Shown: positions 498-27,189 of the stretch, piece by piece
Layout: the number at the start of each line of letters is the position of its first letter
How positions within the stretch are numbered: position 1 is the first letter of the stretch
The notes under the pieces: generated by a model
What the model was told of the DNA's origin: nothing
Databases searched by the model: none
What the model saw: the letters and a program-made list of their open reading frames with translations, nothing else
Translations under genes and position numbers: made by a program
Assembly (NCBI GenBank): GCA_013388645.1
Contig: JACAEV010000053.1
Span: 1 to 32,746, forward strand
Source: Syntrophaceae bacterium
Lineage (GTDB): Bacteria > Desulfobacterota > BSN033 > UBA1163
Direction: 5' to 3'
Length of the DNA stretch: 32,746 nucleotides

Positions 498-1889
498 ATG
501 AAGGAGTTCAAAGTTTTTCTTAGAGAAGATGAGATTCCAAAGCAATGGTACAATATTCAAGCAGACCTACCAACCCCCCTCCAACCACCTCTTCACCCCG
601 GCACAGGACAACCAATCGGTCCGCAGGACCTTGCCCCTGTTTTCCCCATGAACCTCATCGAACAGGAGGTCAGCACACAGCGATGGGTCGATATCCCTCA
701 AGAGGTGATGGATAAACTCCTCATCTGGAGACCAACCCCTCTTCACCGTGCATTTGCCTTGGAAAAGGCCTTGGGAACGCCCGCTCGAATTTATTACAAA
801 AATGAAGGAGTAAGCCCTCCGGGAAGCCATAAACCCAATACAGCCATTGCCCAAGCCTATTATAATAAGGCTTTTGGAATTAAACGAATCACCACTGAAA
901 CTGGTGCTGGTCAATGGGGAAGCGCTCTCAGCTTCGCGTGCTGTCTCTATGGTTTAGAATGTAAGGTTTATATGGTCAGAATTAGTTATGACCAGAAACC
1001 TTATCGTCGTATGATGATGAATACTTGGGGAGCCAACTGTGTTCCCAGTCCGAGCAAAGACACCAATGCAGGAAGAAAAATTTTGGAACAGACCCCAGAT
1101 TCTCCTGGTAGCCTCGGGATTGCCATCAGTGAAGCCATTGAAGACGCGGTCACTTCCAAAGATACCCGGTACTCCCTCGGGAGCGTCTTGAACCATGTGA
1201 TGATGCATCAAACGATTATCGGGCTTGAGGCGAAGAAACAGCTTGAGAAATTTGGAGAGAAAAAAGTGGATGTGGTGTGTGGGTGCGCAGGGGGTGGAAG
1301 TAACTTCGCTGGGCTTTCTTTTCCATTTGTTTTAGACAAAATTAATGGCGCCAATATCACCATCATCCCATCAGAACCAACTTCCTGTCCAACAATGACC
1401 CGAGCACCATTTGTGTATGATTTTGGTGATACGGCTGCAACCACCCCGCTCCTCCCCATGTACAGTCTCGGGCACACCTTCATTCCAGCCCCTATCCATG
1501 CTGGAGGCTTGAGGTATCATGGCATCGCTCCCCTTCTGAGCCAGTTAATTATTGAAGGATTGATTGAGCCTCGGGCTTATAATCAGCTGGAGGCTTACGC
1601 CGCTGCTGTCCAATGGGCAAGGACCGAAGGCCAGATCCCTGCCCCAGAAACCAGCCATGCGATTTGTACAGTGATTGAGGAAGCTAAAAAGGCTAAAGAA
1701 GAAGGAAAAGAGAAAGTCATTCTGATCAATTGGAGCGGCCATGGTCTTATGGATCTTGGTGGTTACGATGCCTATTTCAGTGGAAGACTTGTCGACTACG
1801 TATTGCCGGAAGATGAGATGAAAAAATCGCTCAAATCTATTGAAGGATTGCCGAAACCACCCCAAATGAAAAAGGGTAAACCAATCTAA
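498..1889 (+). CDS. trpB: Tryptophan synthase beta chain, TrpB2 type
   Basis: This is a PLP enzyme that would condense indole with L-serine to give L-tryptophan. The PLP lysine is K112 in the motif [10 protein letters not shown], and the phosphate-binding glycine loop is [12 protein letters not shown] near residue 260. The 463-residue length and the long N-terminal extension before the 'RPTPLHRA' motif match the TrpB2 subgroup rather than the classical TrpB1 partner of TrpA. No trpA or other trp gene is in the window, so it may salvage free indole. The start ATG follows a strong AGGAGG with 5 bp spacing. A second strong site, AAAGGAGGTGA (about 434-444), lies upstream without an obvious gene; it falls within a possible 9-codon frame at 427-456. 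Transcription probably ends at the hairpin just after the stop. Confidence 0.93.
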
Positions 1890-2254: not shown

Positions 2255-3349
2255 ATGCTAATCTCTGAACGGTTAAGAAACATTAAACCATCCGGAGTGA
2301 GGCGAATCTTTGACCTCGCTCGCCAAATGAAAGATCCCATCAATCTGAGCATTGGAGAACCCGATTTCGATATCCCAGAACCTCTCAAAGAAGAAGGCAT
2401 AGATTGGATCCGTAAAGGGTTTAATAAATACACTCCTACCCAAGGTATTCCTGAGTTGAGGGAGAAAATTGCCAATCACCTCAGAAAAAAGGGGGTCCAT
2501 TTTGAAGAGGTCATGGTCACAGCAGGTGTGACCGGTGGTCTTCTGCTGGCCAGCCTCGCCCTCATCAACCCAGGAGATGAAGTTGTCATCCCGGATCCAT
2601 TTTTTGTGATGTATGAATATCAGGTTCTTCTGATGGGAGGAGTTCCCGTCTTCGTCGATACTTATCCTGATTTTCGATTGAGGGAAGTGGAACTTACAAA
2701 AAAATTAACCAAGAAAACGAAATTGATCATCATTAATAGCCCAAATAATCCTACAGGAGCCATTTATCCAAAGGAAGATCTGATGATGGTTGTCAGGATT
2801 GCCAAGGAAAGAAATCTATTAATTCTTTCCGATGACATTTACGACAATTTTGTTTTTGATGCTCCGGCCTGTCCCTGTATTGGGCAACTTTATGAGAACA
2901 CTTTAACCTTTGGTGGATTTTCAAAGGGCTGGGGGATGACTGGATGGAGACTGGGTTATGCAGCCGGCCCCAAAGAGATTCTCCAACAGATGATCACCCT
3001 TCAACAATATACCTTCTCCAGCGTGAATTCCTTTGCCCAGAAGGCAGCCGTCAAGGCGCTCGACTATCCAGTAGAGGACATGATCCAGGGATACAAAAGA
3101 AAGAGAGACCTCATCTACGAAGGATTAAAAGAAAAGTTTAATGTTCAAAAACCACAAGGAGCTTTCTATATCTTTCCAGAAGTCCCAGGGGGGGACGGAG
3201 AAGCTTTTGTAGAAAAAGCTATCCAGAATAATCTTTTTATCGTCCCCGGAAGTGTCTTTTCTAAGAGAAACACAAACGTCCGAATTTCTTTTGCCGCATC
3301 CGAGGAAACTTTATTTAAGGGAATTGAGGTGTTGAATCGGATCAGTTAA
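2255..3349 (+). CDS. Class I/II PLP-dependent aminotransferase
   Basis: Fold-type I aminotransferase that moves the amino group of an amino acid to a 2-oxoacid. The PLP lysine is K224 in GGFSKGWGMTGWRLGY. The PLP-contacting motif NSPNNPTG (near 165) and the aspartate in LSDDIYDNF (near 190) are present, and the C-terminal NVRIS supplies the carboxylate-binding arginine. The 364-residue length is normal for the AspC-like group. Substrate cannot be read from sequence. Its place ahead of an indolepyruvate oxidoreductase cluster suggests it makes aromatic or branched 2-oxoacids (inference). A GGAG site precedes the ATG by 9 bp. The upstream gene ends 4 bp away. Confidence 0.92.
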   Translation: MLISERLRNIKPSGVRRIFDLARQMKDPINLSIGEPDFDIPEPLKEEGIDWIRKGFNKYTPTQGIPELREKIANHLRKKGVHFEEVMVTAGVTGGLLLASLALINPGDEVVIPDPFFVMYEYQVLLMGGVPVFVDTYPDFRLREVELTKKLTKKTKLIIINSPNNPTGAIYPKEDLMMVVRIAKERNLLILSDDIYDNFVFDAPACPCIGQLYENTLTFGGFSKGWGMTGWRLGYAAGPKEILQQMITLQQYTFSSVNSFAQKAAVKALDYPVEDMIQGYKRKRDLIYEGLKEKFNVQKPQGAFYIFPEVPGGDGEAFVEKAIQNNLFIVPGSVFSKRNTNVRISFAASEETLFKGIEVLNRIS

Positions 3350-3472: not shown

Positions 3473-3503
3473 TTAGATAATGTTGAATGGAAGGGGAGAA
3501 GAA

Positions 3504-3962
3504 ATGATTGTCGATCTGCAGGCAGTTTGCGAGATCATTGAAAAACATGGCTATCAAAAGGCTTCCTTAATTGGTATTCTTCAGGATATTCAGGCTAAAA
3601 TGAACTACCTCCCTCGGAAAGCATTGGTTCAGGTGGCTAAAAGCCTCGACATTCCCCTCACCCATATCTATGAGGTGGCTACTTTCTATAAAGCCTTTAG
3701 TTTAGAACCCAAAGGAAGACATACCATTCAGGTCTGCCTAGGCACAGCGTGCCATGTGCGAGGAGGCGCCAGGGTTTTGAACTATCTTGAAAATCGGCTA
3801 GATGTCAAATCTGGAGAAACCACCCAAAACCTCTCCTTTACCTTGGAGAACGTTAATTGTCTGGGAGCTTGTGCCTTAGGGCCTATGATGGTCATTGACA
3901 AAAAATATTACGGGAAAATCAATCCTAAAAAGATCGAATCCATTTTAGAAAAATATCAATAA
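3504..3962 (+). CDS. NuoE-like thioredoxin-fold [2Fe-2S] subunit
   Basis: Small electron-transfer subunit of the NuoE/HoxE/HydC type, which relays electrons to or from the flavin subunit encoded next. An N-terminal helical bundle is followed by a thioredoxin-like fold. Its four cluster cysteines are C78 and C83 (CLGTACHVRG) and C119 and C123 (NCLGAC), the usual C-x4-C ... C-x3-C arrangement. The length of 152 residues is typical. An in-frame ATG at 3480 would add 8 residues; I chose 3504 because GGGGAG lies 5 bp upstream and family members begin near here. The stop is 11 bp before the NuoF-like gene. No membrane Nuo subunits are in the window, so this is part of a soluble complex. Confidence 0.9.
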   Translation: MIVDLQAVCEIIEKHGYQKASLIGILQDIQAKMNYLPRKALVQVAKSLDIPLTHIYEVATFYKAFSLEPKGRHTIQVCLGTACHVRGGARVLNYLENRLDVKSGETTQNLSFTLENVNCLGACALGPMMVIDKKYYGKINPKKIESILEKYQ

Positions 3963-3973
3963 GTGGTGGAAAG

Positions 3974-5830
3974 ATGGGTCCTCCTTTTAAGACTATTTCT
4001 GACCTTCGTAAATTTCGTCAAATCTTAAAAAAATCAAGAGATGGAAATAAACCCTGCATTACGATTTGTGCCGGAACAGGGTGCCAGGCTACGGGCGCAT
4101 CAGAAGTGGTGGAAGGATTCAGACAGCAGATCAAGGACCTTCATCTTGAGGAAAAAATTGAGGTCCGAGCCAGCGGATGCCATGGCTTTTGTGAACGGGG
4201 TCCCTTGGTGGTCATCCGGCCCCAAATGATTTGTTATATGAATGTAGAAACGAAAGATGTCTCTCAAATTATTAACGAAACTGCTCTCGAAGGAAAGATC
4301 ATCGATCGTCTACTCTATCAAGATCCCCTGACCCAAGAGAAGATTGTCCAAGAACAGGACATCCCATTTTATAAATTCCAGCAGAGGGTTGTCTTTGGCA
4401 GTAATGGAGAAATTGATCCCACTCGGATTGATGACTATATTGCAATCGGTGGGTATCAAGGATTAGAAAAAGTCCTTTCCGAGATGACCCCTGAAAAAAT
4501 AATAGAGGTGATCAAAAAATCTGGTCTGAGAGGAAGAGGGGGCGGAGGGTTTCCGACGGGGGTGAAATGGGAGTCATGCCGAAATGCGAAGGGGAAAGAA
4601 AAATTCGTTATTTGTAATGCAGATGAAGGAGACCCTGGCGCCTATATGGATCGGTCTTTATTAGAGGGAAACCCTCACCGCATCATCGAAGGAATCCTCA
4701 TTGGCGCCTATGCGATTGGCTCCGAAGAGGGATATGTGTACGTCCGGAACGAGTATCCACTTGCTGTCTCGAATCTCACTCGTGCCATCGATCAGGCAAA
4801 AGAATACGGCCTTCTCGGGAGGAATATCCTAGGATCCCAATTGAACTTCACCCTCAAAATCAATCGTGGGGGAGGAGCTTTTGTGTGCGGTGAATCAACC
4901 GCTTTAATGGCCTCTCTGGAGGGAAGGGTTGGAGAACCTCGAGCGAAATACATTCATACTGTTGAACACGGACTCTGGGATCAACCCAGCAACCTGAATA
5001 ATGTGGAGACATGGGCCAATATCCCCATCATCATCAACAAAGGGGTGGATTGGTATACTTCCATCGGAACGCAGGGATCAAAGGGAACGAAGATTTTTTC
5101 TCTGGTCGGGAAGATCAATAATACAGGCCTCGTTGAAGTCCCAATGGGAATTACGCTGCGTCAGATCGTTTATGATATCGGTGGTGGAATTCCAGGGGGT
5201 AAACGTTTTAAGGCGATCCAGACCGGGGGGCCTTCCGGGGGTTGCATTCCCGAAAGCCTTCTTGATCTTCCCGTTGATTTTGATCGCCTTCAGGAAGCGG
5301 GATCGATGATGGGTTCAGGTGGGATGATCGTGATGGATGAAGACAACTGCATGGTGGATATGGCTCGTTACTTCGTTCAATTCCTACAAGAGGAATCCTG
5401 CGGGAAGTGTACACCATGTCGAGAGGGCCTTCAACAGATGGGAGAGGTTCTTAACCGAATCTGTGAAGGAAATGGAAGAGACGAAGATATGGAACTCCTA
5501 CACGATCTTTCCCAGGTAATGATGGATACTTCTCTTTGCGGTTTAGGATTGACTGCGCCCAACCCGGTTTTATCGACACTCCAGTATTTCAGAGATGAAT
5601 ATGAAGCTCATATCAAAGAGAAAAAATGTCCGGCCAAGTTTTGCAAAGAGCTGATCTCTCTTTCAATCAATCCTGAGAAATGTACCGGTTGTACAGCCTG
5701 TGTCAGGGTTTGCCCTGTTGAGGCGATCGCTGGGGAAAAGAAAAAACCCCATCAGTTGGATGGCGATAAATGCGTGAAGTGCAGAGCTTGTTATGAGGCC
5801 TGCAAATTTGATGCAATCACGATTCAATAA
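3974..5830 (+). CDS. NuoF-like NADH-binding flavoprotein with extra Fe-S domains
   Basis: Predicted to bind FMN and NAD(H) and carry several iron-sulfur clusters. In order: an N-terminal thioredoxin-like [2Fe-2S] domain (C-x4-C near 28 and GCHGFC near 64); the NuoF core with GRGGGGFPTG (near 186, NADH), CNADEGDPGAYMDR (near 214, FMN) and GGGAFVCGESTAL (near 300); the [4Fe-4S] site ESCGKCTPCREG with TSLCGLG (about 474-520); and a C-terminal 2x[4Fe-4S] ferredoxin (CTGCTACVRVCP and CVKCRACYEAC). This 618-residue plan is that of the flavin subunit of soluble NAD-linked hydrogenases, formate dehydrogenases and bifurcating complexes. No hydrogenase or formate dehydrogenase catalytic subunit follows. 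Instead come a NuoG/GcvH fusion and Ior subunits. Confidence 0.93.
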   Translation: MGPPFKTISDLRKFRQILKKSRDGNKPCITICAGTGCQATGASEVVEGFRQQIKDLHLEEKIEVRASGCHGFCERGPLVVIRPQMICYMNVETKDVSQIINETALEGKIIDRLLYQDPLTQEKIVQEQDIPFYKFQQRVVFGSNGEIDPTRIDDYIAIGGYQGLEKVLSEMTPEKIIEVIKKSGLRGRGGGGFPTGVKWESCRNAKGKEKFVICNADEGDPGAYMDRSLLEGNPHRIIEGILIGAYAIGSEEGYVYVRNEYPLAVSNLTRAIDQAKEYGLLGRNILGSQLNFTLKINRGGGAFVCGESTALMASLEGRVGEPRAKYIHTVEHGLWDQPSNLNNVETWANIPIIINKGVDWYTSIGTQGSKGTKIFSLVGKINNTGLVEVPMGITLRQIVYDIGGGIPGGKRFKAIQTGGPSGGCIPESLLDLPVDFDRLQEAGSMMGSGGMIVMDEDNCMVDMARYFVQFLQEESCGKCTPCREGLQQMGEVLNRICEGNGRDEDMELLHDLSQVMMDTSLCGLGLTAPNPVLSTLQYFRDEYEAHIKEKKCPAKFCKELISLSINPEKCTGCTACVRVCPVEAIAGEKKKPHQLDGDKCVKCRACYEACKFDAITIQ

Positions 5831-5932: not shown

Positions 5933-7237
5933 ATGGTTACCCTCACCATTAACAGTAAAAAAGTGAGAGCTAAGGAAAACTCGACGCTCCTGGAGGTGTG
6001 TCAGAAACTATCCATTCCCATTCCAACCCTCTGCTATCATCCTGATCTTTCACCTCATGGCTCCTGTAGGCTTTGCACTGTAGAGGTTTCTGAAAATGGA
6101 AAAACTCGAATGGTGACAGCCTGTAACTTCCCCGTACGAGAGGGAATCAAAGTGGAAACCCATTCCGATAAGGTTCTCCAGGCACGCCGTATTCTGATCG
6201 AGCTTCTTTTGGCTCGGTGTCCTCGGGTACCGTTTCTGCAGGACTTTGCGCGAGAATGGGGTGTTCAAAAAAGCTCCTTTAAGACTGAAAACCCGGAAAA
6301 TAATTGTATCCTTTGTGGTCTTTGCGTTCGTACTTGCAATGAACTGGTAGGGGCCAATGCTATTGGGTTCTCAAAAAGGGGAACCCATAAAAAGATTGGA
6401 ACACCTTTTGAGATCGATTCAAGCCGATGTATTGCCTGCGGAGCCTGTGAGTATATTTGCCCGACAGGGGCTGTCAAAATGGAGATGGACCGAATTCGAG
6501 AAATCAAACATTCTGACACCGGGATACTTCGTATCTGTCGATATGCACGGCTTGGACTGATTGATTTTATGATCTGCTCCAATGGCTTTGAGTGTTGGCG
6601 GTGTGAGGTGGATCAGATGATCGAAGATCGTTTCGGAACCCATCCGGTTTTTGCAATAAAACCAGCTCACAACAAGCAACCATTCCAAGTGAATGGATTT
6701 ACCTTTTTCCCTGATCTCTTCTACAGTGAGGAACATATCTGGGCCAAACCAATAGAACAGCATATCCGGTTAGGTCTCGACGAAATGATTTCCATTTTCG
6801 CCATGGAGGCCGATTCGATTAGCCTTCCTCCCAAAGGGAGCGCTCTGAAAAAAGGACAGGTCCTTGCGGAAATCAGGGCAGCCGGGAAAAAGGCGAAAAT
6901 CCTTTCCCCTCTTGCAGGAGTTGTTTCAGTGATAAACCACGATGTGGAAGAATCTCCTAATTTGGCCTGGAGGGACCCCTATCGACGGGGATGGTTGGTC
7001 ATGATTCAGCCCGACCGTCCGGAAGAGCTCTTCAATCTTGATTCAGGTGAAAAAGCTAAAAGTTGGTTTACCAAAGAAGCTTCGAATTTGACCACCTTTC
7101 TCATGAAGGGAGTTCCCCAATCTTCTAAGAAGGACCGTTCTCCGAGGGAACCGTTGATTGGGAAGGTCATTCATCAACAGTGGGATAATCTGATAAAAAT
7201 CCTGTTGCCCCCTAAAAATGAACGAAGAGGTAAATAA
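5933..7237 (+). CDS. NuoG-like Fe-S protein fused to a GcvH-like (lipoyl-type) domain
   Basis: Unusual 434-residue fusion. Residues 1-80 form a plant-type [2Fe-2S] domain (C34, C45, C48, C64). About 90-115 resembles the NuoG linker but lacks the His-Cys cluster ligands. Two [4Fe-4S] sites follow (C125/128/131/135 and C166/169/172/176). A short Cys segment (about 202-226, CSNGFECWRCEVDQ) precedes a domain from about 262 to 370 that matches glycine-cleavage H protein: FYSEEHIWAK, ISLPPKGSALKKG, LSPLAGVV and SPNLAWRDPYRRGWLV. By eye, the residue matching the lipoyl lysine is G318, with lysines at 319 and 320. It probably wires the NuoEF-like module to its partner; the H-like domain may be structural. 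Stop and next start overlap (TAATG), suggesting translational coupling. No clear ribosome binding site precedes the ATG. Confidence 0.88.
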   Translation: MVTLTINSKKVRAKENSTLLEVCQKLSIPIPTLCYHPDLSPHGSCRLCTVEVSENGKTRMVTACNFPVREGIKVETHSDKVLQARRILIELLLARCPRVPFLQDFAREWGVQKSSFKTENPENNCILCGLCVRTCNELVGANAIGFSKRGTHKKIGTPFEIDSSRCIACGACEYICPTGAVKMEMDRIREIKHSDTGILRICRYARLGLIDFMICSNGFECWRCEVDQMIEDRFGTHPVFAIKPAHNKQPFQVNGFTFFPDLFYSEEHIWAKPIEQHIRLGLDEMISIFAMEADSISLPPKGSALKKGQVLAEIRAAGKKAKILSPLAGVVSVINHDVEESPNLAWRDPYRRGWLVMIQPDRPEELFNLDSGEKAKSWFTKEASNLTTFLMKGVPQSSKKDRSPREPLIGKVIHQQWDNLIKILLPPKNERRGK

Positions 7238-10200
7238 TGTCCGATAGTGAAAAGAGGGTTGTTCTCGGAAACGAAGCCATCGCACGGGGGGTGGTTGAAA
7301 GTGGATGCCAATTTTTTGCGGCCTATCCCGGCACTCCCAGCTCAGAGATCCTTCCCGCCATTGTTCGATTCAAAAAAGAAAATAACCTCGACCTCTACAT
7401 CGAATGGTCCACCAATGAAAAAGTAGCTTTTGAGAATGCATTGGTCGCTTCATATACAGGGAAACGAGCTGCTGTTGCGATGAAACAAGTGGGTTTAAAT
7501 GTCGCCACAGATCCCCTGATGAGCGCAGCTTACATTGGTACGATAGGAGGTTTTGTCATCATCAGTTGTGATGATCCAGGTCCCTTCTCCTCCCAGACCG
7601 AGCAGGACACTCGTTTTATGGCCATGTTTGCCAAAGTTCCTGTTTTTGATCCTTCGAGTCCAAAAGAAGCTCAGCAAATGTTACCCATTGCTTTTGAACT
7701 CTCTGAAAAATACCAGACCCCCGTGATCCTCCGTCCGGTGTTGAGAGTCTCTCATGCCCAACAAACCATCACGTTTAATCCCATTCGCCGCTTGGGAAGG
7801 AAAGCTAATTTCCAGCACAACCCCCAGCGATGGAGCGCCACACCCAGGTTCCGTTTTCTCTTACATAAACAACTTAACATGAAGCTCAAAAAAATTGGGG
7901 AGGAATTCAATTCCTTGACCTCTTTCAACTTCATTGAGCATGATCGGGATCAGGCAGTGATGGGAATTATCGCCGGTGGAATTGCCTATTCCATGATTCG
8001 AGATATCCTTCTTGAATTAGGTCTTCAGAGAGAAATACCTGTCCTCAAAATTGGAACTCCATTCCCCTTTCCCACTGAAATTGTGGATGCATTTATTGAG
8101 AAATGTGACCATGTTTTGATTTTGGAAGAAACGGAACCGGTGATCGAGCTTCAAATACGAGATAAATCAAAGATCACGGGGAGATTAGACGGAAGGATCC
8201 CCAATGAGGGAGAGATGCTCCCCGAGGTCATCACCCAGGTTATCTCTGATCTGTGTAAAACATATTCCATTCCTGTGGGTGAAGTTCCCTCCACCGTTAC
8301 TCTTGAAAAGCTGGTGGCTGGCCTTGGGTTACCTATTCGCCGGCCGACCCTTTGCTCCGGATGTCCTCATCGGGCTTCTTTTTATGCGATTAAGAAGGCC
8401 TTCCCGAACGGGATCTTTCCCAGTGATATTGGTTGCTATACTTTAGGAATGAATATGGATTCCGTGGATACCTGTCACGATATGGGGGCGGCGATTACCT
8501 TTGCGAGCGGTCTCTATCAGGTCTATCATCAGGATAATAAAGAGATCCCTATTATCTCGACTATTGGAGATTCGACGTTCTACCACTCCGGGGCCCCAGG
8601 GCTTTTGAATGCCGTCTATAACGGTGCACGTTTCATTCTCGTGATTCTCGACAATTCCATCACTGCCATGACAGGAATGCAACCGACTCCAGAATCGGGA
8701 ATGACCGCCGATGGTCATCCCGGTCAGCCTCTATCGATCGAAGAATTGGTGAAAGGCTGCGGTGTCAAGTATATTCGGGTGGTCAACCCTTATGATATCA
8801 AAGGGATGATTCGAGAAGCCCGAAAGGCTTACGAATATACTCAACACCCGGAGGGGGGAATGGCTGTTCTCATTTCCCGATACCCCTGTATCACTTATCA
8901 AAAAGAAATTCTCAAGGTCAAACCAATCAAGGTCGACATTCGCCATGTGCCTCCGCCCGAAAAAGACCTTCCCCCTTTGAAAAGTGGAAATATCCCCCTC
9001 TCCCTTTTGCCTGTGTATCAAGATAAAATTGCCCCTTGCACCGGAGCCTGTCCAATCCAGGTGGATGCCAGGGGTTACATCGCTCTGATCTCGAAAGGGA
9101 AGTTTGACGAAGCCCTTGCCTTGGTTCGTCAAAAAAATCCCTTTCCCGCTATCACCGGAAGAATTTGCGCTCGGCCATGTGAAAAGGTTTGTCGAAGAGG
9201 CGATGTCGATCAACCCATTGCCATCGATCTTCTAAAACGATTTGTTGCAGAGAGGAAAAACACCCCTGTCTTCAATGTCACTCCCGGACCTGAAAAAAAA
9301 GCAAAGGTGGCCATTGTTGGATCTGGCCCCACGGGATTGATGGCGGCCTATGATTTGAGACGATATGGGTATCCTGTCACCCTTTTTGAAGCCCTTCCCC
9401 TTCTTGGTGGAACAATGGCTGTTGGGACAGCTCGTTTCCGATTACCCGAGGATGTTTTAAATCGTGAGATCGATATCATCAAAAAACTCGGAGTAACGTT
9501 TAACCTGAACACAAAGATCGGTCATCGGAAATCTCTCGATGATCTTTGGAATCAAGGGTTCAGGGCCATCTTTTTAGCAATCGGAGCTCATAAAGCTAAA
9601 AAGTTGAATCTCCCGGAAGAAGATGCGAAAGGAGTCATGGATTCCCTGACCTTTCTTAAAAAAGTTTCTCTGGGGAAAACCCTCCCTCATTTCTCCAGAG
9701 TGATCGTATTAGGAGGGGGAGATCGAGCGCTTGATGCGGCACGAACAGCACTGAGACTGGGAGCGAAATCGGTGACCGTTCTCTTTAGCCGTTCTCGAAA
9801 AGAAATGCCGGCTGAAGCATTAGAAATTTCCGAAGCTGAGAAAGAGGGCGTCTCCTTTCAGTTTTTCTCCATCCCAACAAAAATTAACGCCTCCCGTGGC
9901 AAGGTCAATGGGGTCTCTTTGAGAAAGACTGTTCTGAGTGTTCCCACCAGCCTCGGGAGAACAAAGGTCCTATCGGTACAAGGGCCTGAAAAAACCGTGA
10001 AGGCCGACCTTGTCATCACTTCACCTCCTTATGTTCCGGATCTTTCTCCTTTTGGGAATGCCATTCCCCAAACGGCTTGGAATACCATTCATGTCGATCC
10101 CGTGACTTTAGGAACCTCGATAGAAGGGCTATTTGCAGGGGGCGATGCAGTGACAGGTCCTAAAAATTTTATAGAGGGCCTTGCAGCGGGAAGAAAGGCC

Positions 10201-10746
10201 GCGCTCTCAATACATCGTTATTTAAGTGGAGAGGACCTAAGAGCAAATCGGGAAGGAGAGGGAGTCTCCATGGAACTGGTCTCTGTTAACATCGACAAAA
10301 TAGAAAATCAACTAAGAGTGGCGGAGCCTGTTCTCTCACCTGAATCCCGTTCAAAGAATTTTAAAGAAGTCCGTCTTCTCCCCTCAGAGGAAGCATTGGT
10401 GGCAGAGGCCAAAAGATGCCTTCATTGCGGGGCTTGTTATCAATGCGACACATGCATGCTTCAGTGTCCAGAGGGGGCTATTTCCAAGACCGAAGAAGGT
10501 TATGTGATCCATTACGAGAAGTGTACCGGCTGCCGCATTTGCGTCCAGGAGTGCCCAACTTCATCCATCGATATGCCAGCCGTGGGAGCTTGTATCGCTT
10601 GTGGGTTCTGTCTCAAACGGTTTGAGTGCCCTTCTTTACTTAAAGGAGAAGATGGTCGAGTGAAGATCGATCGGTTGACTTGTGTGGACTGTGGCCTCTG
10701 TATCCAAGTGTGCGGTCAGGAAGGAATTTATCAGAAGGCCCTTTAA
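7237..10746 (+). CDS. iorA: IorA-GltD-ferredoxin fusion (2-oxoacid:ferredoxin oxidoreductase alpha)
   Basis: A 1169-residue multidomain redox enzyme. Residues 1 to about 560 are indolepyruvate:ferredoxin oxidoreductase alpha: pyrimidine-binding part (AAYPGTPSSE), CSGCPHR, and a TPP motif from GDS (near 443) to DN (near 471). From about 600 to 1040 lies a GltD-type NAD(P)H/FAD oxidoreductase: N-terminal Fe-S motif CTGACPIQ with ARPCEKVCRRG, FAD loop VGSGPTG (near 690), dinucleotide loop VLGGGDRALD (near 822) and GGDAVTGP. Residues 1060-1169 carry ferredoxin clusters, including CLHCGACYQC, CTGCRICVQEC, CIACGFC and CVDCGLCIQVC. Ordinary IorA is about 600 residues and ends with its own ferredoxin domain, so the GltD/ferredoxin unit appears inserted between the TPP part and that tail. 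Predicted role: oxidise 2-oxoacids (possibly aromatic) and exchange electrons with NAD(P)H. The start overlaps the previous stop. Confidence 0.92.
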   Translation: MSDSEKRVVLGNEAIARGVVESGCQFFAAYPGTPSSEILPAIVRFKKENNLDLYIEWSTNEKVAFENALVASYTGKRAAVAMKQVGLNVATDPLMSAAYIGTIGGFVIISCDDPGPFSSQTEQDTRFMAMFAKVPVFDPSSPKEAQQMLPIAFELSEKYQTPVILRPVLRVSHAQQTITFNPIRRLGRKANFQHNPQRWSATPRFRFLLHKQLNMKLKKIGEEFNSLTSFNFIEHDRDQAVMGIIAGGIAYSMIRDILLELGLQREIPVLKIGTPFPFPTEIVDAFIEKCDHVLILEETEPVIELQIRDKSKITGRLDGRIPNEGEMLPEVITQVISDLCKTYSIPVGEVPSTVTLEKLVAGLGLPIRRPTLCSGCPHRASFYAIKKAFPNGIFPSDIGCYTLGMNMDSVDTCHDMGAAITFASGLYQVYHQDNKEIPIISTIGDSTFYHSGAPGLLNAVYNGARFILVILDNSITAMTGMQPTPESGMTADGHPGQPLSIEELVKGCGVKYIRVVNPYDIKGMIREARKAYEYTQHPEGGMAVLISRYPCITYQKEILKVKPIKVDIRHVPPPEKDLPPLKSGNIPLSLLPVYQDKIAPCTGACPIQVDARGYIALISKGKFDEALALVRQKNPFPAITGRICARPCEKVCRRGDVDQPIAIDLLKRFVAERKNTPVFNVTPGPEKKAKVAIVGSGPTGLMAAYDLRRYGYPVTLFEALPLLGGTMAVGTARFRLPEDVLNREIDIIKKLGVTFNLNTKIGHRKSLDDLWNQGFRAIFLAIGAHKAKKLNLPEEDAKGVMDSLTFLKKVSLGKTLPHFSRVIVLGGGDRALDAARTALRLGAKSVTVLFSRSRKEMPAEALEISEAEKEGVSFQFFSIPTKINASRGKVNGVSLRKTVLSVPTSLGRTKVLSVQGPEKTVKADLVITSPPYVPDLSPFGNAIPQTAWNTIHVDPVTLGTSIEGLFAGGDAVTGPKNFIEGLAAGRKAALSIHRYLSGEDLRANREGEGVSMELVSVNIDKIENQLRVAEPVLSPESRSKNFKEVRLLPSEEALVAEAKRCLHCGACYQCDTCMLQCPEGAISKTEEGYVIHYEKCTGCRICVQECPTSSIDMPAVGACIACGFCLKRFECPSLLKGEDGRVKIDRLTCVDCGLCIQVCGQEGIYQKAL

Positions 10747-10762
10747 AGATGAGGAAATGATT

Positions 10763-11395
10763 ATGAATCAGCAATCCGCCATCCGCACTCCCCAATCCGC
10801 ATTGGAGAGGATGAATATCCAAATGATTATTTCTGGAGTAGGGGGACAGGGGGTTCTCTTGGTGACAAGAATTTTTGCAGCCTTTGCCCTTCGGGAAGGA
10901 TATCCACTCATTGGTTCAGAAGACCACGGAATGAGTCAACGGGGAGGGTCGGTGATGACCCATCTGAAAATTGGTAATTTCGATAGTCCCCTTGTCAAGA
11001 AAGGAAGCGCAGACCTCCTCTTATCCCTTGAAAAGAATGAGGCTTATAAGACTCTTTATTACCTTAAACCCGCTTCGAACGGTCAAGACGGTGGCCTTTG
11101 CTTTATCAACGCCCCGAATTCTAACGATATGAATAAAGAAATTAAAAAATATCTTCAGGAAAGAAGAATCGGCGTCTATGTATTTGGTGCTGATCAATTA
11201 GCCAGGGAAATGGGGTCCGTTCAATCTGCAAATATTGCTCTTATCGGTTTCGCTGCGGCCCATCATCGATTTCCTTTTCAACCTGAAAAACTCAGAGAGG
11301 CGATCGAACAAGTGACCTCTCAAAGATTTCGAGAAGTAAGTCTAAAAATATTTGAAAAAGGGTTCTTGGAAGGGAAAAAATCTATCACAGAATAA
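10763..11395 (+). CDS. iorB: Indolepyruvate:ferredoxin oxidoreductase beta subunit
   Basis: Gamma-type 2-oxoacid oxidoreductase subunit that pairs with IorA to complete the CoA/TPP site. The diagnostic start IISGVGGQGVLLVTRI and the motif SEDHGMSQRGGSV are present. Homologues usually begin at the ATG at 10811, where GGAGAGG sits too close to the codon. The ATG at 10763 has GAGG about 8 bp upstream and adds 16 residues, most of them translated from a 7-bp repeat, so the extension may or may not be real. It lies 16 bp after IorA and no other 2-oxoacid oxidoreductase subunit is present. About 195-210 residues is normal for IorB. Confidence 0.92.
   Translation: MNQQSAIRTPQSALERMNIQMIISGVGGQGVLLVTRIFAAFALREGYPLIGSEDHGMSQRGGSVMTHLKIGNFDSPLVKKGSADLLLSLEKNEAYKTLYYLKPASNGQDGGLCFINAPNSNDMNKEIKKYLQERRIGVYVFGADQLAREMGSVQSANIALIGFAAAHHRFPFQPEKLREAIEQVTSQRFREVSLKIFEKGFLEGKKSITE
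10771..10805 (+). repeat. 7-bp tandem repeat at the 5' end of iorB
   Basis: The units GCAATCC, GCCATCC, GCACTCC and CCAATCC (10771-10798) follow each other in exact 7-bp register, then a partial unit. CCAAT (10792-10796) can pair with ATTGG (10801-10805). If iorB starts at 10757 or 10763, the repeat is translated as an N-terminal QSAIRTPQSAL-like stretch; if it starts at 10811, the repeat lies just before the start, as with the other elements of this window. Confidence 0.7.
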
Positions 11396-11444
11396 CTTCC
11401 TTTCTTTAAATCTCCTTTCTTATTAATACGCTATCACCCTTCAT

Positions 11445-11471
11445 TTGACAACTTTATGGGGAAAGTATAAA
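11445..11471 (+). promoter_or_regulatory. Probable sigma-70-type promoter of htrA
   Basis: TTGACA (11445-11450) and TATAAA (11466-11471) are separated by 15 bp, slightly short. The start codon of htrA is 32 bp downstream of the -10 box. No CIRCE element is present here. Confidence 0.45.
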
Positions 11472-11503
11472 CTATTAATATAATTCACTTTAAGGAGCAG
11501 AAC

Positions 11504-12961
11504 ATGAGCAAGAAATTGACTAAAGGGTTAGTATTGAGTCTTTCCATCTTCTTTCTCTCATTTGGCCTTTTTTTCTGTATCGCTAAAGATAAGGCCGACT
11601 CACTACCTAAAAACGACAAATTGACAACAGCCAAATCCCTTGGACTGGCCTTTGTGGAAGTTGCCAAGAAAGTTCAACCATCCGTTGTGAACGTCACCAC
11701 AGAAAAAACAATCACCGTGAAACCTTGGGAAAGATATGGAGAAGACTTTTTCAAGGGTAGCCCTTTTGAGGAATTTTTCAAAGGGTTTGGCATTACGCCT
11801 CGAGAAAAAGGGAGAGAATATCGACATAAACAGAGAAGTGGTGGTTCTGGAGTCATCGTCGATAAAGAGGGCTATATTCTCACGAACAACCATGTGATTG
11901 AAGGGGCTGATAAGATTAAGATTCGACTGAATGACGGGAGGGAGTTTACTGCCACCCTCAAAGGCCAGGATTCGAGAACAGACCTTGCTGTCCTCCATAT
12001 CAAAGCAAAGGATCTTCCTGTGGCGACATTGGGGGATTCGGATAAGCTGGAAGTTGGAGAATGGGCTATTGCCATCGGAAGTCCTTTTGGCTTGGAACAT
12101 ACGGTGACCGTTGGGGTGATCAGCGCTAAAGGCCGCTCCGGATTGGGAACGGGGACTTATGAGGATTTCATCCAAACGGATGCTTCCATCAATCCTGGTA
12201 ACAGTGGAGGTCCACTGATCAACATCGATGGAGAGGTAGTGGGGATCAATGCCATGATCATCCAACCGGGTACAGGGATTGGGTTTGCCATTCCCATTAA
12301 CATGGCCAAACAGATTTTAAATGACCTCATCAAAGAGGGGAAGGTCGTCCGGCCATGGCTGGGAATTAGCGCACAAGATCTTACCCCAGAGTTAGCAGAA
12401 CAATTTCAAGTAAAAGAAAAGGAAGGAGTTCTGGTGGCTCAAGTCCATCAAGGAACGGGTGCTGAAAAAGCAGGTCTCGTTTCAGGGGATATTATTAAAT
12501 CCGTAGATGATAAAGCGATTAAAAATGTCAATGAGCTAGTTAAAGAGATCCAAAAGAAAAAGGTAGGGCAAAAAGTGAAACTGAGTGTCGTTAGGGATGG
12601 AAAACCAACCGTTATTGAGGTCACTCTCTCAGCAATGCCAGATAAACCAGAGGCCATGAAGGAAAAGGAGAGCGAAGAAAAATTAGGGGCTAAGATTCAG
12701 GAGTTGACTCCCCAGTTAGCTGCCCGATACCGAGTGTCAAGTGAAATAAAACGAGGCGTTGTCATCGTCGGTATCGAAGACGGGGGCCTGGCTGATGAAT
12801 TGGGTCTTCAGGAAGGAGACGTTATTCTGGAAATCAATCGAAAAAAGATTGAGACAATCAAGGATTTTGAAAAAGCGATCAAGGATCTTAACTTAGAAAA
12901 AGGAATTGTTTTCCGCCTACATCGGAGGGGAAATAGTTTTTACCACTCTTTCAAAAAATAA
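11504..12961 (+). CDS. htrA: HtrA/DegP-family periplasmic serine protease with two PDZ domains
   Basis: Envelope protease/chaperone that degrades misfolded exported proteins. The N-terminal segment, a basic start then hydrophobic residues to about 28, is a signal peptide or anchor; it ends near a cysteine (GLFFC) that is not a good lipobox. The catalytic triad is H130 (TNNHVIEG), D160 (SRTDLAVL) and S234 (GNSGGPL). A linker of about 30 residues after the first beta strand (GSPFEEFFKGFG) is the regulatory loop typical of DegP. Two PDZ domains follow (about 285-375 and 395-480). The length of 485 is normal. AGGAG lies 6 bp before the ATG. It faces the DUF1844 gene tail to tail. Confidence 0.95.
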   Translation: MSKKLTKGLVLSLSIFFLSFGLFFCIAKDKADSLPKNDKLTTAKSLGLAFVEVAKKVQPSVVNVTTEKTITVKPWERYGEDFFKGSPFEEFFKGFGITPREKGREYRHKQRSGGSGVIVDKEGYILTNNHVIEGADKIKIRLNDGREFTATLKGQDSRTDLAVLHIKAKDLPVATLGDSDKLEVGEWAIAIGSPFGLEHTVTVGVISAKGRSGLGTGTYEDFIQTDASINPGNSGGPLINIDGEVVGINAMIIQPGTGIGFAIPINMAKQILNDLIKEGKVVRPWLGISAQDLTPELAEQFQVKEKEGVLVAQVHQGTGAEKAGLVSGDIIKSVDDKAIKNVNELVKEIQKKKVGQKVKLSVVRDGKPTVIEVTLSAMPDKPEAMKEKESEEKLGAKIQELTPQLAARYRVSSEIKRGVVIVGIEDGGLADELGLQEGDVILEINRKKIETIKDFEKAIKDLNLEKGIVFRLHRRGNSFYHSFKK

Positions 12962-21381: not shown

Positions 21382-22581
21382 ATGGATGAAGCCCAAGTCT
21401 TTAAAAACATTACCGTTTTAAGTCTCGAACAAGCAACAGTCCTCCCTTATTTGACCCTCCGTTTAGCGGAAGACGGCGCCAATGTCATCCGTATGGAACA
21501 TCCCATCTATGGGGATCCCAACCGACGAGTTGGAGACGATGTTTTGAAAGAGGACAGGATGTTTTCCTATTATCTTTCCATCAATGCCGGGAAAAAGGCC
21601 TTGACGCTGGATATCGGAACTCCGGAAGGGCAGGAGATTTTAAAGAAACTCATCCTCAAATTAAAAGTAGATATTTTTGCTACCAATCAACTACCCAGAA
21701 ATTATCCAAAACTTGGAATTGAGTATGAGATGCTTAAAAAGATTAAAGAGGACATCATTTGGCTTGGGATGACCGGTTTTGGCCCTCAAAGTAATGAAGC
21801 GGCTTATGACCCTGTCCTTCAAGCAAGAGGTGGATTGATGGAACTCACAGGAGAAAAAGGGGGCAGCCCGCAGGTCATGGGAATTCCACTCCCCGACATG
21901 GGGGCCAGTGAACATGGCTACGGTCTCCTGATGAAGGCCCTCTATAAAAGGGCGGTGACCGGACAGGGGAGCCGTATTGATCTATCGATGTTCGAAAGCA
22001 CCGTCTCATGGCTGACTCAAGCGATCACTCATACCGCCACCTTTAAGAAAAAGGTTTCCCGAAGAGGAAATACTCATGAATTCTTTTCACCCGTCTCTGT
22101 CTATCAGACCAAAGATGGCTATGTCTACATTGCCGTCGGAAATGATAAACAGTGGGAAACGATGACCAAAATTCCGGGATTTGAGTCTCTTTATAAAAAA
22201 GAGTATGAAAGGAATGCCGGCCGAATTGCAGATGTAGACAATTTAAATAATGCGATTAACGCCATTACTAAAAATTTTTCAACCAACCAACTGATCGAGA
22301 TCTTCAATAAAGCGACCATTGCTATTTCTAAGGTCAATACGATTGAAGAAGTCGTTGAGGACCCCTTGGTCAAACCAAATTTGATTCGAAGCAAGGACCC
22401 CAAGACAGGATTGGAGATCACCATCGCACCACCTCCTATCAATAATGCCTATCTGAAATCCATTGACCGGATGATGAGTTTTCCTCCTCGATTTGGGGAA
22501 CATAATGAGGAAATTTACGGTGGCCTGTTGGGATATAGCGCTGCCCAATTAAAGGAGTTTAAGGAGAAGAACATTATATAA
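21382..22581 (+). CDS. Class III CoA-transferase (CaiB/BaiF family)
   Basis: Moves CoA from one acyl-CoA to a free acid, activating the substrate for dehydrogenation. The family signature is clear: VLSLEQATVLPYLTLRLAEDGANVIRMEHP, then KKALTLDI, and catalytic aspartate D172 in LPDMGASEHGYGLLMKALY, followed by GQGSRIDLSMFES. The length of 399 is normal. Substrate unknown. By analogy to carnitine CoA-transferase and arylpropionate-type enzymes next to fix/etf genes, a carboxylic acid that is later dehydrogenated is likely. It is first in the operon, with promoter and palindrome upstream. The next gene is separated by a 7-bp-unit hairpin element. Confidence 0.92.
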   Translation: MDEAQVFKNITVLSLEQATVLPYLTLRLAEDGANVIRMEHPIYGDPNRRVGDDVLKEDRMFSYYLSINAGKKALTLDIGTPEGQEILKKLILKLKVDIFATNQLPRNYPKLGIEYEMLKKIKEDIIWLGMTGFGPQSNEAAYDPVLQARGGLMELTGEKGGSPQVMGIPLPDMGASEHGYGLLMKALYKRAVTGQGSRIDLSMFESTVSWLTQAITHTATFKKKVSRRGNTHEFFSPVSVYQTKDGYVYIAVGNDKQWETMTKIPGFESLYKKEYERNAGRIADVDNLNNAINAITKNFSTNQLIEIFNKATIAISKVNTIEEVVEDPLVKPNLIRSKDPKTGLEITIAPPPINNAYLKSIDRMMSFPPRFGEHNEEIYGGLLGYSAAQLKEFKEKNII

Positions 22582-22586
22582 GTAAT

Positions 22587-22662
22587 GAGTTCGGAGTTCA
22601 GAGTTCGGAGTCCCAAGACGAAACGCTCCGAACACCGAACTAATCACTCCGAACTATTGCGA
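22587..22662. repeat. 7-bp-unit inverted repeat element (copy 1)
   Basis: The left arm has units GAGTTCG, GAGTTCA, GAGTTCG and GAG (22587-22610). A 15-bp centre follows, then the complementary arm with CTCCGAAC, ACCGAACT and ACTCCGAACT (22626-22655), and the flank ATTGCGA. The left arm is identical over 24 bp to the copy at 24711. The hairpin ends just upstream of the AGGAG site of the acyl-CoA dehydrogenase gene. Confidence 0.85.
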
Positions 22663-22677
22663 CGAAAGGAGCAATCG

Positions 22678-23838
22678 ATGGCTCTTGATTTCACTTTTAC
22701 TGAGGAGCAAGAATTTTTCAGACAAATGGTTAGGGATGCGGTGAATCGGTTGATCATGCCCAGGGTAAAGGAGCTGGATGAGAAAGAAGAATTTCCTTGG
22801 GATCTCTGGAAAGAATTTGCGGCTTTGGGATATCTGGGCCTGAGGCACGAAGAAAAATATGGGGGGATGGGAATCGATACGATTACCCAGATGATCTTTT
22901 ATGAAGAATTAGCAAGAGGGTCCTGTGGTTTTTCCATGTCGGCAACGATGCAGATCCTCATGGGAACTTACTTCATTGCCCGCTTTGGAAATGAAAATAT
23001 TAAGCAAAGGATTCTTGTTCCTGCCATCAAAGGCGAAAAGATCGGAACGATTTGTTTTACGGAAGACCAATCCGGTTCTGACTTGGCAGGGACTAGGACG
23101 CTGGCGACCAAAGTGGATGGGGGTTGGAGGATCAACGGTAGAAAACAATGGATCACCAATGGACCGATTGCGGATTTTGCCACCGTCATGGCCACGATTG
23201 ATCCCAAGATGGGACTGAAGGGCCTCAACTTCTACCTGGTCGAAAGAAAGACAGCGGATCGGGATGGATTTGTCTCTGGCCAAAGGCTCCATAAATTGGG
23301 TTCCCGCTGTTCTGTGACAGGAGAGTTGGTCATGGATAATACTTTTATTCCTGATGAGAATTTCCTGGGTGAAGAAATTGGAAAAGGAGTTCAGTATGCC
23401 GGGGAGATTCTTAACGAAGTCCGGGTCATGACTGGAATGAATGCCTTGGCCATTGCGAAGGAAGCTATGGAGGATGCAAGACAGTATGCCAACAACCGAG
23501 TAGCCTTTGGAAACCCCATTAGTAAATATCAGTTAATTCGAGAAAAGTTTGCAAAATTCTGGGCATGGTACGAGGCCTCTCGAACTTTCCTCTACAAATG
23601 TGCCTGGATGATCCAAAACAAAATACCGTGTATCAATGAATGCATGTTGGCCAAATATCACTCCACTGAGATGTGCATGTATGCCGTCGAGGAGTGTATG
23701 AGGATTTATGGTGGAAATGCCTTTTGCTCGGAATATCCTGTGCAACGATTCTGGAGGGATGCCAAATTCTTACTTTACGGTGGCGGCACCCATGAAGTAC
23801 TATGTGACTATCTGGGAAGAATCTACTGCAAAGAATAA
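22678..23838 (+). CDS. Acyl-CoA dehydrogenase
   Basis: FAD enzyme that introduces a 2,3-double bond into an acyl-CoA and passes electrons to ETF. Hallmarks: CFTEDQSGSDLAGTRTLA (near 120) for FAD and substrate, QWITNG, VAFGNPISKYQLIREKFA, and EECMRIYGGNAF near the C-terminus. The usual catalytic glutamate before GT (as in YEGT) is a glycine, G369 in YGGGTHEV, so either the base lies elsewhere, as in isovaleryl- and long-chain enzymes, or activity is altered. The true start is 22678 (AGGAG 6 bp upstream). An upstream in-frame ATG at 22585 would translate the repeat. 386 residues is normal. The product probably feeds the enoyl-CoA hydratase-like protein downstream. Confidence 0.93.
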   Translation: MALDFTFTEEQEFFRQMVRDAVNRLIMPRVKELDEKEEFPWDLWKEFAALGYLGLRHEEKYGGMGIDTITQMIFYEELARGSCGFSMSATMQILMGTYFIARFGNENIKQRILVPAIKGEKIGTICFTEDQSGSDLAGTRTLATKVDGGWRINGRKQWITNGPIADFATVMATIDPKMGLKGLNFYLVERKTADRDGFVSGQRLHKLGSRCSVTGELVMDNTFIPDENFLGEEIGKGVQYAGEILNEVRVMTGMNALAIAKEAMEDARQYANNRVAFGNPISKYQLIREKFAKFWAWYEASRTFLYKCAWMIQNKIPCINECMLAKYHSTEMCMYAVEECMRIYGGNAFCSEYPVQRFWRDAKFLLYGGGTHEVLCDYLGRIYCKE

Positions 23839-23847
23839 GTAAAACTC

Positions 23848-23879
23848 TGGAATAGTGGAATTATGGAATGTTGGAACAA
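23848..23879. repeat. 8-bp-unit tandem repeat
   Basis: Four units in exact register: TGGAATAG, TGGAATTA, TGGAATGT, TGGAACAA. Only one arm is obvious here. It lies between the acyl-CoA dehydrogenase stop and the etfB ribosome binding site. It is related in unit sequence to 5833-5918 and 27190-27292. Confidence 0.75.
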
Positions 23880-23915
23880 TGATTCTGGGGTTATTGAACT
23901 GCATTGGAGGTTAAG

Positions 23916-24698
23916 ATGGATATATATGTGTTGGTGAAACAGGTCCCAGATCCCGAAGCCAACGTCAAAGTCAAATCCGATGTTGAATTGGAGATCGAAA
24001 ATAAATATTTCACCAACTTCTTCGATGAAATTGCAATTGAAGCGGGTCTAAAATTGCGAGAAAAGTTTGGTGGGAAAGTGACCGTGTTAACGGTCGATAA
24101 CAAGAAAGTGGATGCCCTGAGAAGAGGAATCGCCATGGGCGCGGACGATGCGATTCAGATCACTGACCCTGCCTTAGAGGGATCCGATCCGTTTGCTATT
24201 GCCAAGACCTTAGCGGCTTATCTCAAGGATAAGCCTTTTGACCTGATTTTGGCGGGCAGACAGGCGATGGACGATGATGCGGGAATCGTCGGGCCGGGCG
24301 TCGCTGAGTTACTGGGAATTCCACATGTGAATATGATCGTGGGTCTTGAGATCGATGATCCCAAGAAAGAGTTAAAGGTAGTCCGAGAGGTAGAGGGCGG
24401 AAAAGAAATCTTATCCTGTTTCCTTCCCGCACTCTTCACCTGCCAGAAAGGTTTAAATAATCCTCGTATTCCCCAGGTCATGAATGTGATGAAGGCGATG
24501 AAGGCTCAGATGAAGAAGGTAGATCTGGCTGCTTTGGGACTGAGCGCAGTCGATGTCGGGGGGCAGGCTGTTAAGATAAAAGTTCAGAAATATTTACCAC
24601 CCCCTAAGAGACCACCCGTGAAAATGATCAAAGAAGATTTTCCAGAGAATGTGAAGCAATTGGTAAAACTACTTAAAGAAGAAGCCAAAGTCATCTGA
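23916..24698 (+). CDS. etfB: Electron transfer flavoprotein beta subunit (FixA/EtfB)
   Basis: Beta subunit of the ETF heterodimer that accepts electrons from acyl-CoA dehydrogenases. The start MDIYVLVKQVPDPEANVKV, the core GADDAIQITD and the signature LAGRQAMDDDAGIVGPGVAELLGIPHV are typical. The VGP...LGIP part resembles, from memory, bifurcating FixA/EtfB more than mitochondrial ETF. 260 residues is normal. The start at 23916 is set by GGAGG 5 bp upstream; an in-frame TTG at 23904 lies within that site. The gene order beta, alpha, fixC, fixX is the fixABCX order, pointing to an ETF that serves both a dehydrogenase and a quinone/ferredoxin branch. Confidence 0.94.
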   Translation: MDIYVLVKQVPDPEANVKVKSDVELEIENKYFTNFFDEIAIEAGLKLREKFGGKVTVLTVDNKKVDALRRGIAMGADDAIQITDPALEGSDPFAIAKTLAAYLKDKPFDLILAGRQAMDDDAGIVGPGVAELLGIPHVNMIVGLEIDDPKKELKVVREVEGGKEILSCFLPALFTCQKGLNNPRIPQVMNVMKAMKAQMKKVDLAALGLSAVDVGGQAVKIKVQKYLPPPKRPPVKMIKEDFPENVKQLVKLLKEEAKVI

Positions 24699-24710
24699 TA
24701 GTAAAGTTCT

Positions 24711-24770
24711 GAGTTCGGAGTTCAGAGTTCGGAGCAAGAAAAAAAATACCGAACTCCGAACTATTGCGAA
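24711..24770. repeat. 7-bp-unit inverted repeat element (copy 2)
   Basis: The left arm GAGTTCG, GAGTTCA, GAGTTCG, GAG (24711-24734) faces CCGAACTCCGAACT (24749-24762) across an A-rich centre, followed by ATTGCGA as in copy 1 (22587). The hairpin stands 9 bp before the AAGGA site of etfA. Confidence 0.85.
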
Positions 24771-24780
24771 AGGAAGCATT

Positions 24781-25770
24781 ATGTCTAACGAAATATGGGT
24801 CTTCGCAGAGCAACAGGAAGGAAAGGTCCGGAGAGTGGCCTTTGAACTTCTATCTGCTGCGGCAGATTTTTCAAAAAAAACCGGTTCTACGGTTGCTGGA
24901 ATTTTATTGGGGAGTGGTCTTCAGGAAGCCCTGAAAAGCTTGACCTCATACGCTGATAAAATCTATTTGCTGGATGATCCAGGCCTTGCTGCTTACACCT
25001 CCGATGCCTATTTGATCCATATGGCCCCTTTAATTAAAGAACATCAGCCCTCCATCCTTTTGGGAGGAGCCACTTCAACGGGAAAAGATCTCTTCCCCAG
25101 ACTGGCCATGCACCTCCAAACAGGTTACGCCCCAGATTGTACGGGTCTTACTATCGAAGAGAACGGGAAACTGATTGCTAAACGTCCCCTCTATGGGGGA
25201 AAGGTCTTTGCAGAGATGATCTATTTAGAAGCCAAACCTCAGATGGCAACGGTGAGAAACAACACCTTTCTCGTTAATCAAAACCTTAATAAATCGGCAC
25301 AGGTTATTCCAATCTCTTCTCCTATTGATCCCTCTTCGTTGAAAAAGAAGGTCATCGGATTGGAAAAAGCAGCCGGGGCAAAGTTGGATATCACGGAGGC
25401 CGAAATTGTGGTGGCGGCTGGAAGAGGAATCAAAGCACCCGAAAATTTTAAGATCATGGAGGAATTAGCCGATGTGCTGAATGCCTCAGTGGGGACGACT
25501 CGGGCGACAGTGGATGAAGGGTGGAGGGACGTAAAGGATCAGATCGGAAAGAGTGGAAAGAATATCTCTGCCAAACTCTACATGGCTTTTGGGGTTTCAG
25601 GGGCCATCCATCATATCCTTGGAATCGGGACGTGCAAAACAGTGGTGGCAGTGGATACGGATCCGAATGCCCTTATTTTCAACTATGCCGATTATGGGAT
25701 CGTGGGTGATCTCTTCCAGATCGTGCCTGCGTTAACGGAGGAATTGAAAAAAGCCATGGCCGAAAAGTAG
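24781..25770 (+). CDS. etfA: Electron transfer flavoprotein alpha subunit (FixB/EtfA)
   Basis: Alpha subunit of ETF, holding the electron-carrying FAD. An N-terminal alpha/beta domain (1-190) is followed by the FAD domain: AAGRGIKAPENFKIMEELADVL, VGTTRATVDEGW, IGKSGKNISAKLYMAFGVSGAIHHILGI and AVDTDPNALIFNYADYGIVGD. All flavin-contact motifs are present. 329 residues is normal. AGGA lies 6-9 bp before the ATG. It pairs with etfB, 82 bp upstream, from which it is separated by a hairpin of 7-bp units that might set the subunit ratio. Confidence 0.95.
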   Translation: MSNEIWVFAEQQEGKVRRVAFELLSAAADFSKKTGSTVAGILLGSGLQEALKSLTSYADKIYLLDDPGLAAYTSDAYLIHMAPLIKEHQPSILLGGATSTGKDLFPRLAMHLQTGYAPDCTGLTIEENGKLIAKRPLYGGKVFAEMIYLEAKPQMATVRNNTFLVNQNLNKSAQVIPISSPIDPSSLKKKVIGLEKAAGAKLDITEAEIVVAAGRGIKAPENFKIMEELADVLNASVGTTRATVDEGWRDVKDQIGKSGKNISAKLYMAFGVSGAIHHILGIGTCKTVVAVDTDPNALIFNYADYGIVGDLFQIVPALTEELKKAMAEK

Positions 25771-25818: not shown

Positions 25819-25883
25819 CTACAACTTTTGAAGATTCCTTTTCGCTATGTGCTTTGCGCCATGCTCAATGCGGTGAATGGGTG

Positions 25884-27173: not shown

Positions 27174-27189
27174 GATCAACCACTTAAAA

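Follow-up and report, generated by a model that had tools for sequence, protein, structure and literature searches.

What role can a glycine cleavage H-protein (GcvH) fold, normally the carrier of a lipoyl group, play when it is fused to the electron-transfer subunit of a redox enzyme, and is it still lipoylated there? The question is raised by one gene near the beginning of a contig from a Syntrophaceae bacterium (the whole 32,746-nucleotide stretch that was analysed is termed 'the window' below), the parts of which are as follows.

5933..7237, + strand: open reading frame of 434 amino acids with an ATG start, encoding an A subunit with a Cys motif and a lipoyl-less H-protein domain
5933..6502, + strand: BfuA/HoxU-type ferredoxin part, residues 1-190 (Pfam Fer2_4 and Fer4_7; invariant cysteines)
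6536..6604, + strand: four-cysteine motif, C202-x12-C215-x5-C221-x2-C224-x2-DQ (cysteines invariant in alignments)
6701..7084, + strand: H-protein (GcvH) fold without a lipoyl site, residues 257-384 (Pfam GCV_H; VIA)
6860..6904, + strand: lipoyl hairpin, residues 310-324 (profile alignment, AlphaFold models)
6884-6886, + strand: codon of G318, at the lipoyl-lysine position (profile alignment)
7085..7237, + strand: C-terminal tail, residues 385-434 (alignment)

Residues 1-190 most closely resemble HoxU, NuoG and bifurcating-enzyme A subunits. This part comprises a [2Fe-2S] domain (Fer2_4, residues 1-78, with cysteines C34, C45, C48 and C64) followed by two 4Fe-4S motifs (C125/128/131/135 and C166/169/172/176), and it matches the Wor-Bfu subunit 9mqx_A with a VIA Z score of 15.2. 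The H-protein region is recognized by Pfam GCV_H over residues 263-378 (E 5e-17, above the curated cut-off), and the tail forms a short helix with a W-x-x-hydrophobic end, as it does in the alignment of stand-alone Cys-GcvH proteins. An initial annotation had described the product as a GcvH-like domain fused to a NuoG-like protein; Pfam upholds the former half of that description, but only the N-terminal ferredoxin part of NuoG is represented, and the label is better given as BfuA/HoxU-like.

Profile alignment against solved H proteins ran through the lipoyl hairpin without a gap and, when counted back from a conserved S/A-P pair, set the ESVK of the H protein against R315-A316-A317-G318. The lipoyl lysine of the ESxK motif thereby corresponds to G318 and its recognition glutamate to R315, with K319 and K320 following, which is exactly the correspondence (including both substitutions and the two adjacent lysines) that had been proposed earlier from an ungapped alignment made by eye. 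In AlphaFold models built from 9 and 5 sequences, with pLDDT values near 80-95 over the H-protein domain, strands at residues 310-316 and 319-324 flank a turn at 317-318, and K319 begins the strand that follows that turn. VIA superposition of these models on the Escherichia coli H protein gave Z scores of 18.0 (full-length model) and 19.5 (model of the C-terminal part), over 125-126 residues at 1.7-2.0 A; an E2-type lipoyl or biotinyl domain was rejected as the identity of the fold, at Z of 7.1 or less versus 14 to 19.5 for H proteins. Because the scores to H proteins lie so far above those to biotinyl and E2 domains, the modelled fold is that of an H protein from which the lipoyl site alone is gone. 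The residues that typify H proteins outside the tip (H268, W270, LP298-299, P326, G329, N335, P349-Y350 and G353-W354) are invariant among the orthologs, a pattern that fits a maintained fold. The domain thus has the fold of a lipoylated H protein and lacks the lipoyl lysine in an ExxK hairpin, and it scores below the thresholds of the corresponding families (45.9 bits against a cut-off of 115.85 for TIGR00527, and 54.1 against 117 for NF002270).

Five further fused orthologs, at 55-73% identity, carry G, H, P, D and K in the lipoyl column, and ExxK occurs in none of them, since the lone lysine (in L012) has no glutamate three residues before it; a sequencing error or a mutation of one genome was therefore dismissed as the source of the lysine loss, which is common to five independent genomes. 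L039, a fused protein further removed (38% identity), has the tip TPQGT and no lysine at all, and the tip of L146 and L151 reads GDRH. Of 395 genomes of the phylum searched with a profile, 124 gave matches at E <= 1e-30, a count that takes in some GcvH-like proteins without the Cys motif. For a survey of ExxK itself, 140 distinct GcvH-like domains, mostly from Desulfobacterota, were aligned to one profile: the Cys motif precedes 87 of these domains, and ExxK is present in 0 of those 87, their lipoyl position being occupied mostly by G, E or D and in eight cases by a lysine without the glutamate (the profile was seeded by lysine-less members, such that these counts do not convey the frequency of lysine loss among all GcvH-like proteins). 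Relatives with a normal ExxK motif, the kind of evidence that the initial annotation had named as contrary to its own proposal, were sought and found neither among the five orthologs nor among the 87 Cys-motif-linked domains.

The canonical GcvHs of the same genomes retain ESxK or QSRK. Since the source genome encodes LipA and LplA/LipB (the older Pfam ligase family, PF03099, had no match in it) as well as three GcvHs with the lysine, its gene content indicates that lipoylation is present in the organism, and a lack of lipoate metabolism was discarded as the cause of the loss. In a domain tree constructed with the tip columns removed, the deeper forks of which are limited by few columns and a quick search, 14 lysine-bearing rows and one odd row (L025) group together with an SH-aLRT value of 96, and seven fused proteins that resemble the 434-residue protein group at 92 (six of them at 96). 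L146 is placed elsewhere, on a long branch; given that placement and the limit on deeper forks, one fusion event and two are both possible. The absence of ExxK from the Cys-motif relatives, the separate position of the lysine-bearing GcvHs in the tree and the retention of the fold lend good support to the earlier suggestion that the domain is no longer lipoylated, and from alignments and models that conclusion appears very nearly secure.

The gene lies within an operon, and the other members of that operon are listed below.

498..1889, + strand: TrpB-like PLP enzyme (NF009057), which heads the gene group in orthologs
2255..3349, + strand: class I/II aminotransferase, in the operon of most orthologs
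3480..3962, + strand: NuoE-like subunit (BfuC; PF01257, E 2e-53)
3974..5830, + strand: NuoF-like subunit (BfuB) with N-terminal [2Fe-2S] and C-terminal 2x[4Fe-4S] (PF01512, PF10589, PF10531, Fer4, PF01257; TIGR01959)
7237..10746, + strand: fusion of IorA to a GltD/NfnB-type flavoprotein, with C-terminal 4Fe-4S motifs (TIGR03336, E 2.5e-194; NF009410 and GltD families)
10682..11395, + strand: IorB, with the IOR domain from about residue 44 (PF01558, TIGR03334)

The order of genes is thus TrpB-like, aminotransferase, NuoE, NuoF, the 434-residue fusion, IorA-GltD and IorB, and the run from NuoE to IorB, with the TrpB-like gene ahead, is kept in L037, L038, L214 and L215; the aminotransferase also lies ahead in L037, L038 and L215, and was undetected in the L214 operon. 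In L039 a GltD gene stands between NuoF and the fusion gene, and in L151 GltD is fused to NuoF, such that each fusion whose flanks were examined has a GltD-type flavoprotein with it. As judged from these neighbourhoods, the Cys4-GcvH fusion is found with a BfuABC-like core and a GltD flavoprotein. A scan of contigs keyed on N-terminal ferredoxin patterns returned mostly other BfuA, HoxU or HdrA proteins, and recovered the whole architecture in only L037, L038 and L039. Both subunits of an indolepyruvate oxidoreductase (IOR) are encoded, IorA by the fused gene (TIGR03336, 647.0 bits, just under the cut-off of 650.9) and IorB by a gene matching PF01558; the listed IorB frame opens with a GTG inside the IorA-GltD gene and, because its domain starts only at about residue 44, the true start is probably near 10811. 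IOR converts an arylpyruvate and CoA to arylacetyl-CoA and CO2, and the enzyme of this operon would perform that reaction with electrons passing to NAD, NADP or ferredoxin, or would run in reverse. Further along the window, positions 21382-31843 hold genes for a CoA-transferase III, two acyl-CoA dehydrogenases, ETF alpha and FAD/4Fe-4S oxidoreductases, which likely form an acyl-CoA oxidation cluster.

The reading that we favour, with a probability of roughly 0.55, is that the fused, non-lipoylated H-protein fold keeps the A subunit attached to the GltD/IOR partner. According to this proposal the 434-residue protein would supply the A subunit to an NADH-linked module of BfuABC type (NuoEFG/HydABC-like), operating together with the GltD-fused indolepyruvate oxidoreductase; an entire Cys4 and H-protein module would have been joined to that subunit, retaining its fold and, because the lipoyl site is gone (G318, R315), carrying no lipoate; and the domain would serve as a structural or docking part between the A subunit and the partner flavoprotein or oxidoreductase. 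Folds of the lipoyl/biotinyl type that have no lysine are used in structural or docking roles elsewhere, and such a role is plausible here. It is favoured by the loss of ExxK in all orthologs and all 87 Cys-motif relatives alongside three lysine-bearing GcvHs in the source genome, and by the conserved operon order with its ever-present flavoprotein. Three observations are less easily accommodated: (i) the Cys4-GcvH part is 46-66% identical among orthologs versus 64-82% for the N-terminal part, and so changes faster than the rest of the operon, unlike what a tight interface would predict; (ii) stand-alone homologues lie beside two-component systems and M54 peptidases, and so point to regulation as much as to docking; and (iii) a similar subunit, L040, has the Cys motif without a GcvH domain.

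The second of these observations makes regulation a serious rival. The phylum has many stand-alone relatives, proteins of about 300-360 residues in which one Cys motif or two accompany the domain and tail seen here. In most of twenty regions around such genes, the neighbours of the Cys-GcvH gene encode an M54 peptidase, a histidine kinase and a sigma-54 response regulator, and HdrA, GltD or MvhD genes are often present too. The Cys4-GcvH unit might accordingly be a redox- or metal-sensing regulatory part, here fused to the very enzyme that it senses, with its stand-alone form working together with the kinase, regulator and peptidase to control HdrA/GltD-type enzymes. None of those three regulatory genes is found near the fused version, however; the sole M54 gene found in the source genome belongs to a different contig, where acyl-CoA dehydrogenase genes surround it, and no M54 gene was detected in three fusion-bearing genomes (all drafts). 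For the fused protein we consider regulation rather unlikely. The grouping of M54 archaemetzincin, sigma-54 regulator, histidine kinase and Cys-GcvH recurs in Desulfobacterota (L153, L155, L158, L160, L162-L165 and others), and no account of it was found in open-licence papers.

A further possibility concerns the cysteines themselves. All four (C202, C215, C221 and C224) are invariant in six close orthologs and in seven aligned distant members, which confirms that the Cys motif noticed earlier in front of the GcvH domain is real. No Pfam family describes it (only sub-threshold zf-CHY or chance matches were obtained), and its region was modelled with pLDDT below 50 in both AlphaFold runs. The motif looks like a separate domain, to judge from its distribution, and may hold zinc or an iron-sulfur cluster. 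Small Cys-motif proteins without a GcvH domain occur in L151 (488-1057, with no Pfam match) and L155 (7385-7690). Were the site to bind an additional iron-sulfur cluster, it could wire the A subunit to GltD/IOR, and the H-protein fold would only position that cluster; the four cysteines come directly after a 4Fe-4S domain, L040 retains them without any GcvH domain, and GltD is always nearby in fused cases. The C-x12-C-x5-C-x2-C spacing corresponds to no Fe-S family in Pfam, however, the motif is present, too, in proteins that are encoded next to regulators and contain no other Fe-S domain, zinc would serve equally well, and the models are poor over this region, so that we hold such wiring to be improbable.

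It is also very improbable that the domain is a relic, captured by fusion and drifting without a role: the Cys4-GcvH part does diverge faster than the rest of the protein, but its frame is open, its cysteines and H-protein hallmarks do not vary across six genomes, even where overall identity falls to 55%, and the module is found again in 124 of the 395 genomes (E <= 1e-30; some of these matches lack the Cys motif). Least credible of all is the alternative offered in the initial annotation, a lipoyl site displaced by one residue, with K319 as the lipoylated lysine. A lysine does occupy that column in five of six close orthologs, and lipoate genes are encoded, but the column is R in L012, G in L039 and R in L146, the glutamate at -3 is absent, and the models place K319 outside the turn, in the strand that comes next. 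In addition, an E2 lipoyl domain whose lysine had been shifted one position (D41K/K42A) was not lipoylated (PMC6270654), an inexact analogy in that the shift was N-terminal and the domain that of an E2 protein. A genuine shift of the lipoyl lysine is more credible in L025, an otherwise canonical-looking GcvH-like reading frame of 134 residues (G032:C183:16123-16491) with the tip ESFQKS, in which the glutamate is kept, a glutamine occupies the lipoyl position and a lysine follows one residue later.

Lysine-less GcvH-like domains were also observed in other settings. In L156 (9438-12309) and L166 (around 9578-11763) an N-terminal membrane helix is fused to them and NrfD and HmcB-like genes lie alongside, and a related protein in L015 has a weak HmcD match (E 0.001); from these neighbours, a lysine-less H protein seems also to reside on Hmc-like membrane complexes. 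HdrA-type frames of about 1150 (L147), 1153 (L148) and 977 residues (L150) include such a domain, and three to four lysine-less GcvH-like genes stand in tandem in L157 (9002-11112) and L158 (7123-10920), the latter with MvhD and HdrA genes nearby.

A broader and more tentative idea is that the four cysteines and the lipoyl-less H protein constitute an undescribed module, widespread among Desulfobacterota, that plugs into electron-bifurcating enzymes of several kinds (Bfu, HdrA-GltD, Hmc-like) and through which their redox state is coupled either to assembly or to control linked to sigma-54 and M54. If so, the fusion at 5933-7237 directly reveals which enzyme subunit the module serves. Because it links a module that is widespread in anaerobes, and unexplained, to one definite enzyme and one definite subunit of it, the fusion renders the role of that module testable. 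A Pfam GCV_H match above cut-off will probably cause such genes to be labelled glycine cleavage H protein, yet their products would be unable to work as one. In the open-licence literature no paper was found that connects a lipoyl-less GcvH or an archaemetzincin with HdrA, or HmcD with glycine cleavage, or that describes a lysine-less H protein fused to the A subunit of a bifurcating enzyme in an operon linked to indolepyruvate.

Compared with known systems, the fused domain shares with GcvH (PF01597/TIGR00527) the fold over its whole length (VIA Z 19.5, 126 residues, 1.8 A) and the hallmarks off the tip; it differs in lacking the lipoyl lysine and ExxK, in falling under both family cut-offs, in its location on a redox subunit and in an operon that contains no glycine cleavage genes. 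The GcvH_rel_desulf family (NF045810), which is also GcvH-related, gives a weak match of 37.2 bits, far under its cut-off of 150 bits. LbpA of the sulfur-oxidising Hdr system likewise resembles GcvH and is associated with an electron-transfer enzyme of the Hdr type, but its lipoyl lysine is strictly conserved (PMC6067878), whereas the Cys-GcvH family has none. The BfuABC family (HydABC, NfnABC, Wor-Bfu) is defined by the domains of BfuA, BfuB and BfuC (PMC9304861), and all are present here: 2Fe-2S and 4Fe-4S domains in 5933-7237 (Fer2_4, Fer4_7), PF01512, PF10531 (27.4 against a cut-off of 27), PF10589 and Fer4 in 3974-5830, and the thioredoxin-like [2Fe-2S] domain (PF01257) in 3480-3962, the nearest solved A subunits being 9mqx_A and 9bov_A. 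The operon differs in that its A subunit bears the four cysteines and a lipoyl-less H protein, and in its partners, the IorA-GltD fusion and IorB; the word 'indolepyruvate' is absent from the paper that defines the family, which thus gains an indolepyruvate-linked, GltD-fused arrangement not listed there (PMC9304861). The parts are of known kinds, and what appears new against the open-licence literature is their combination.
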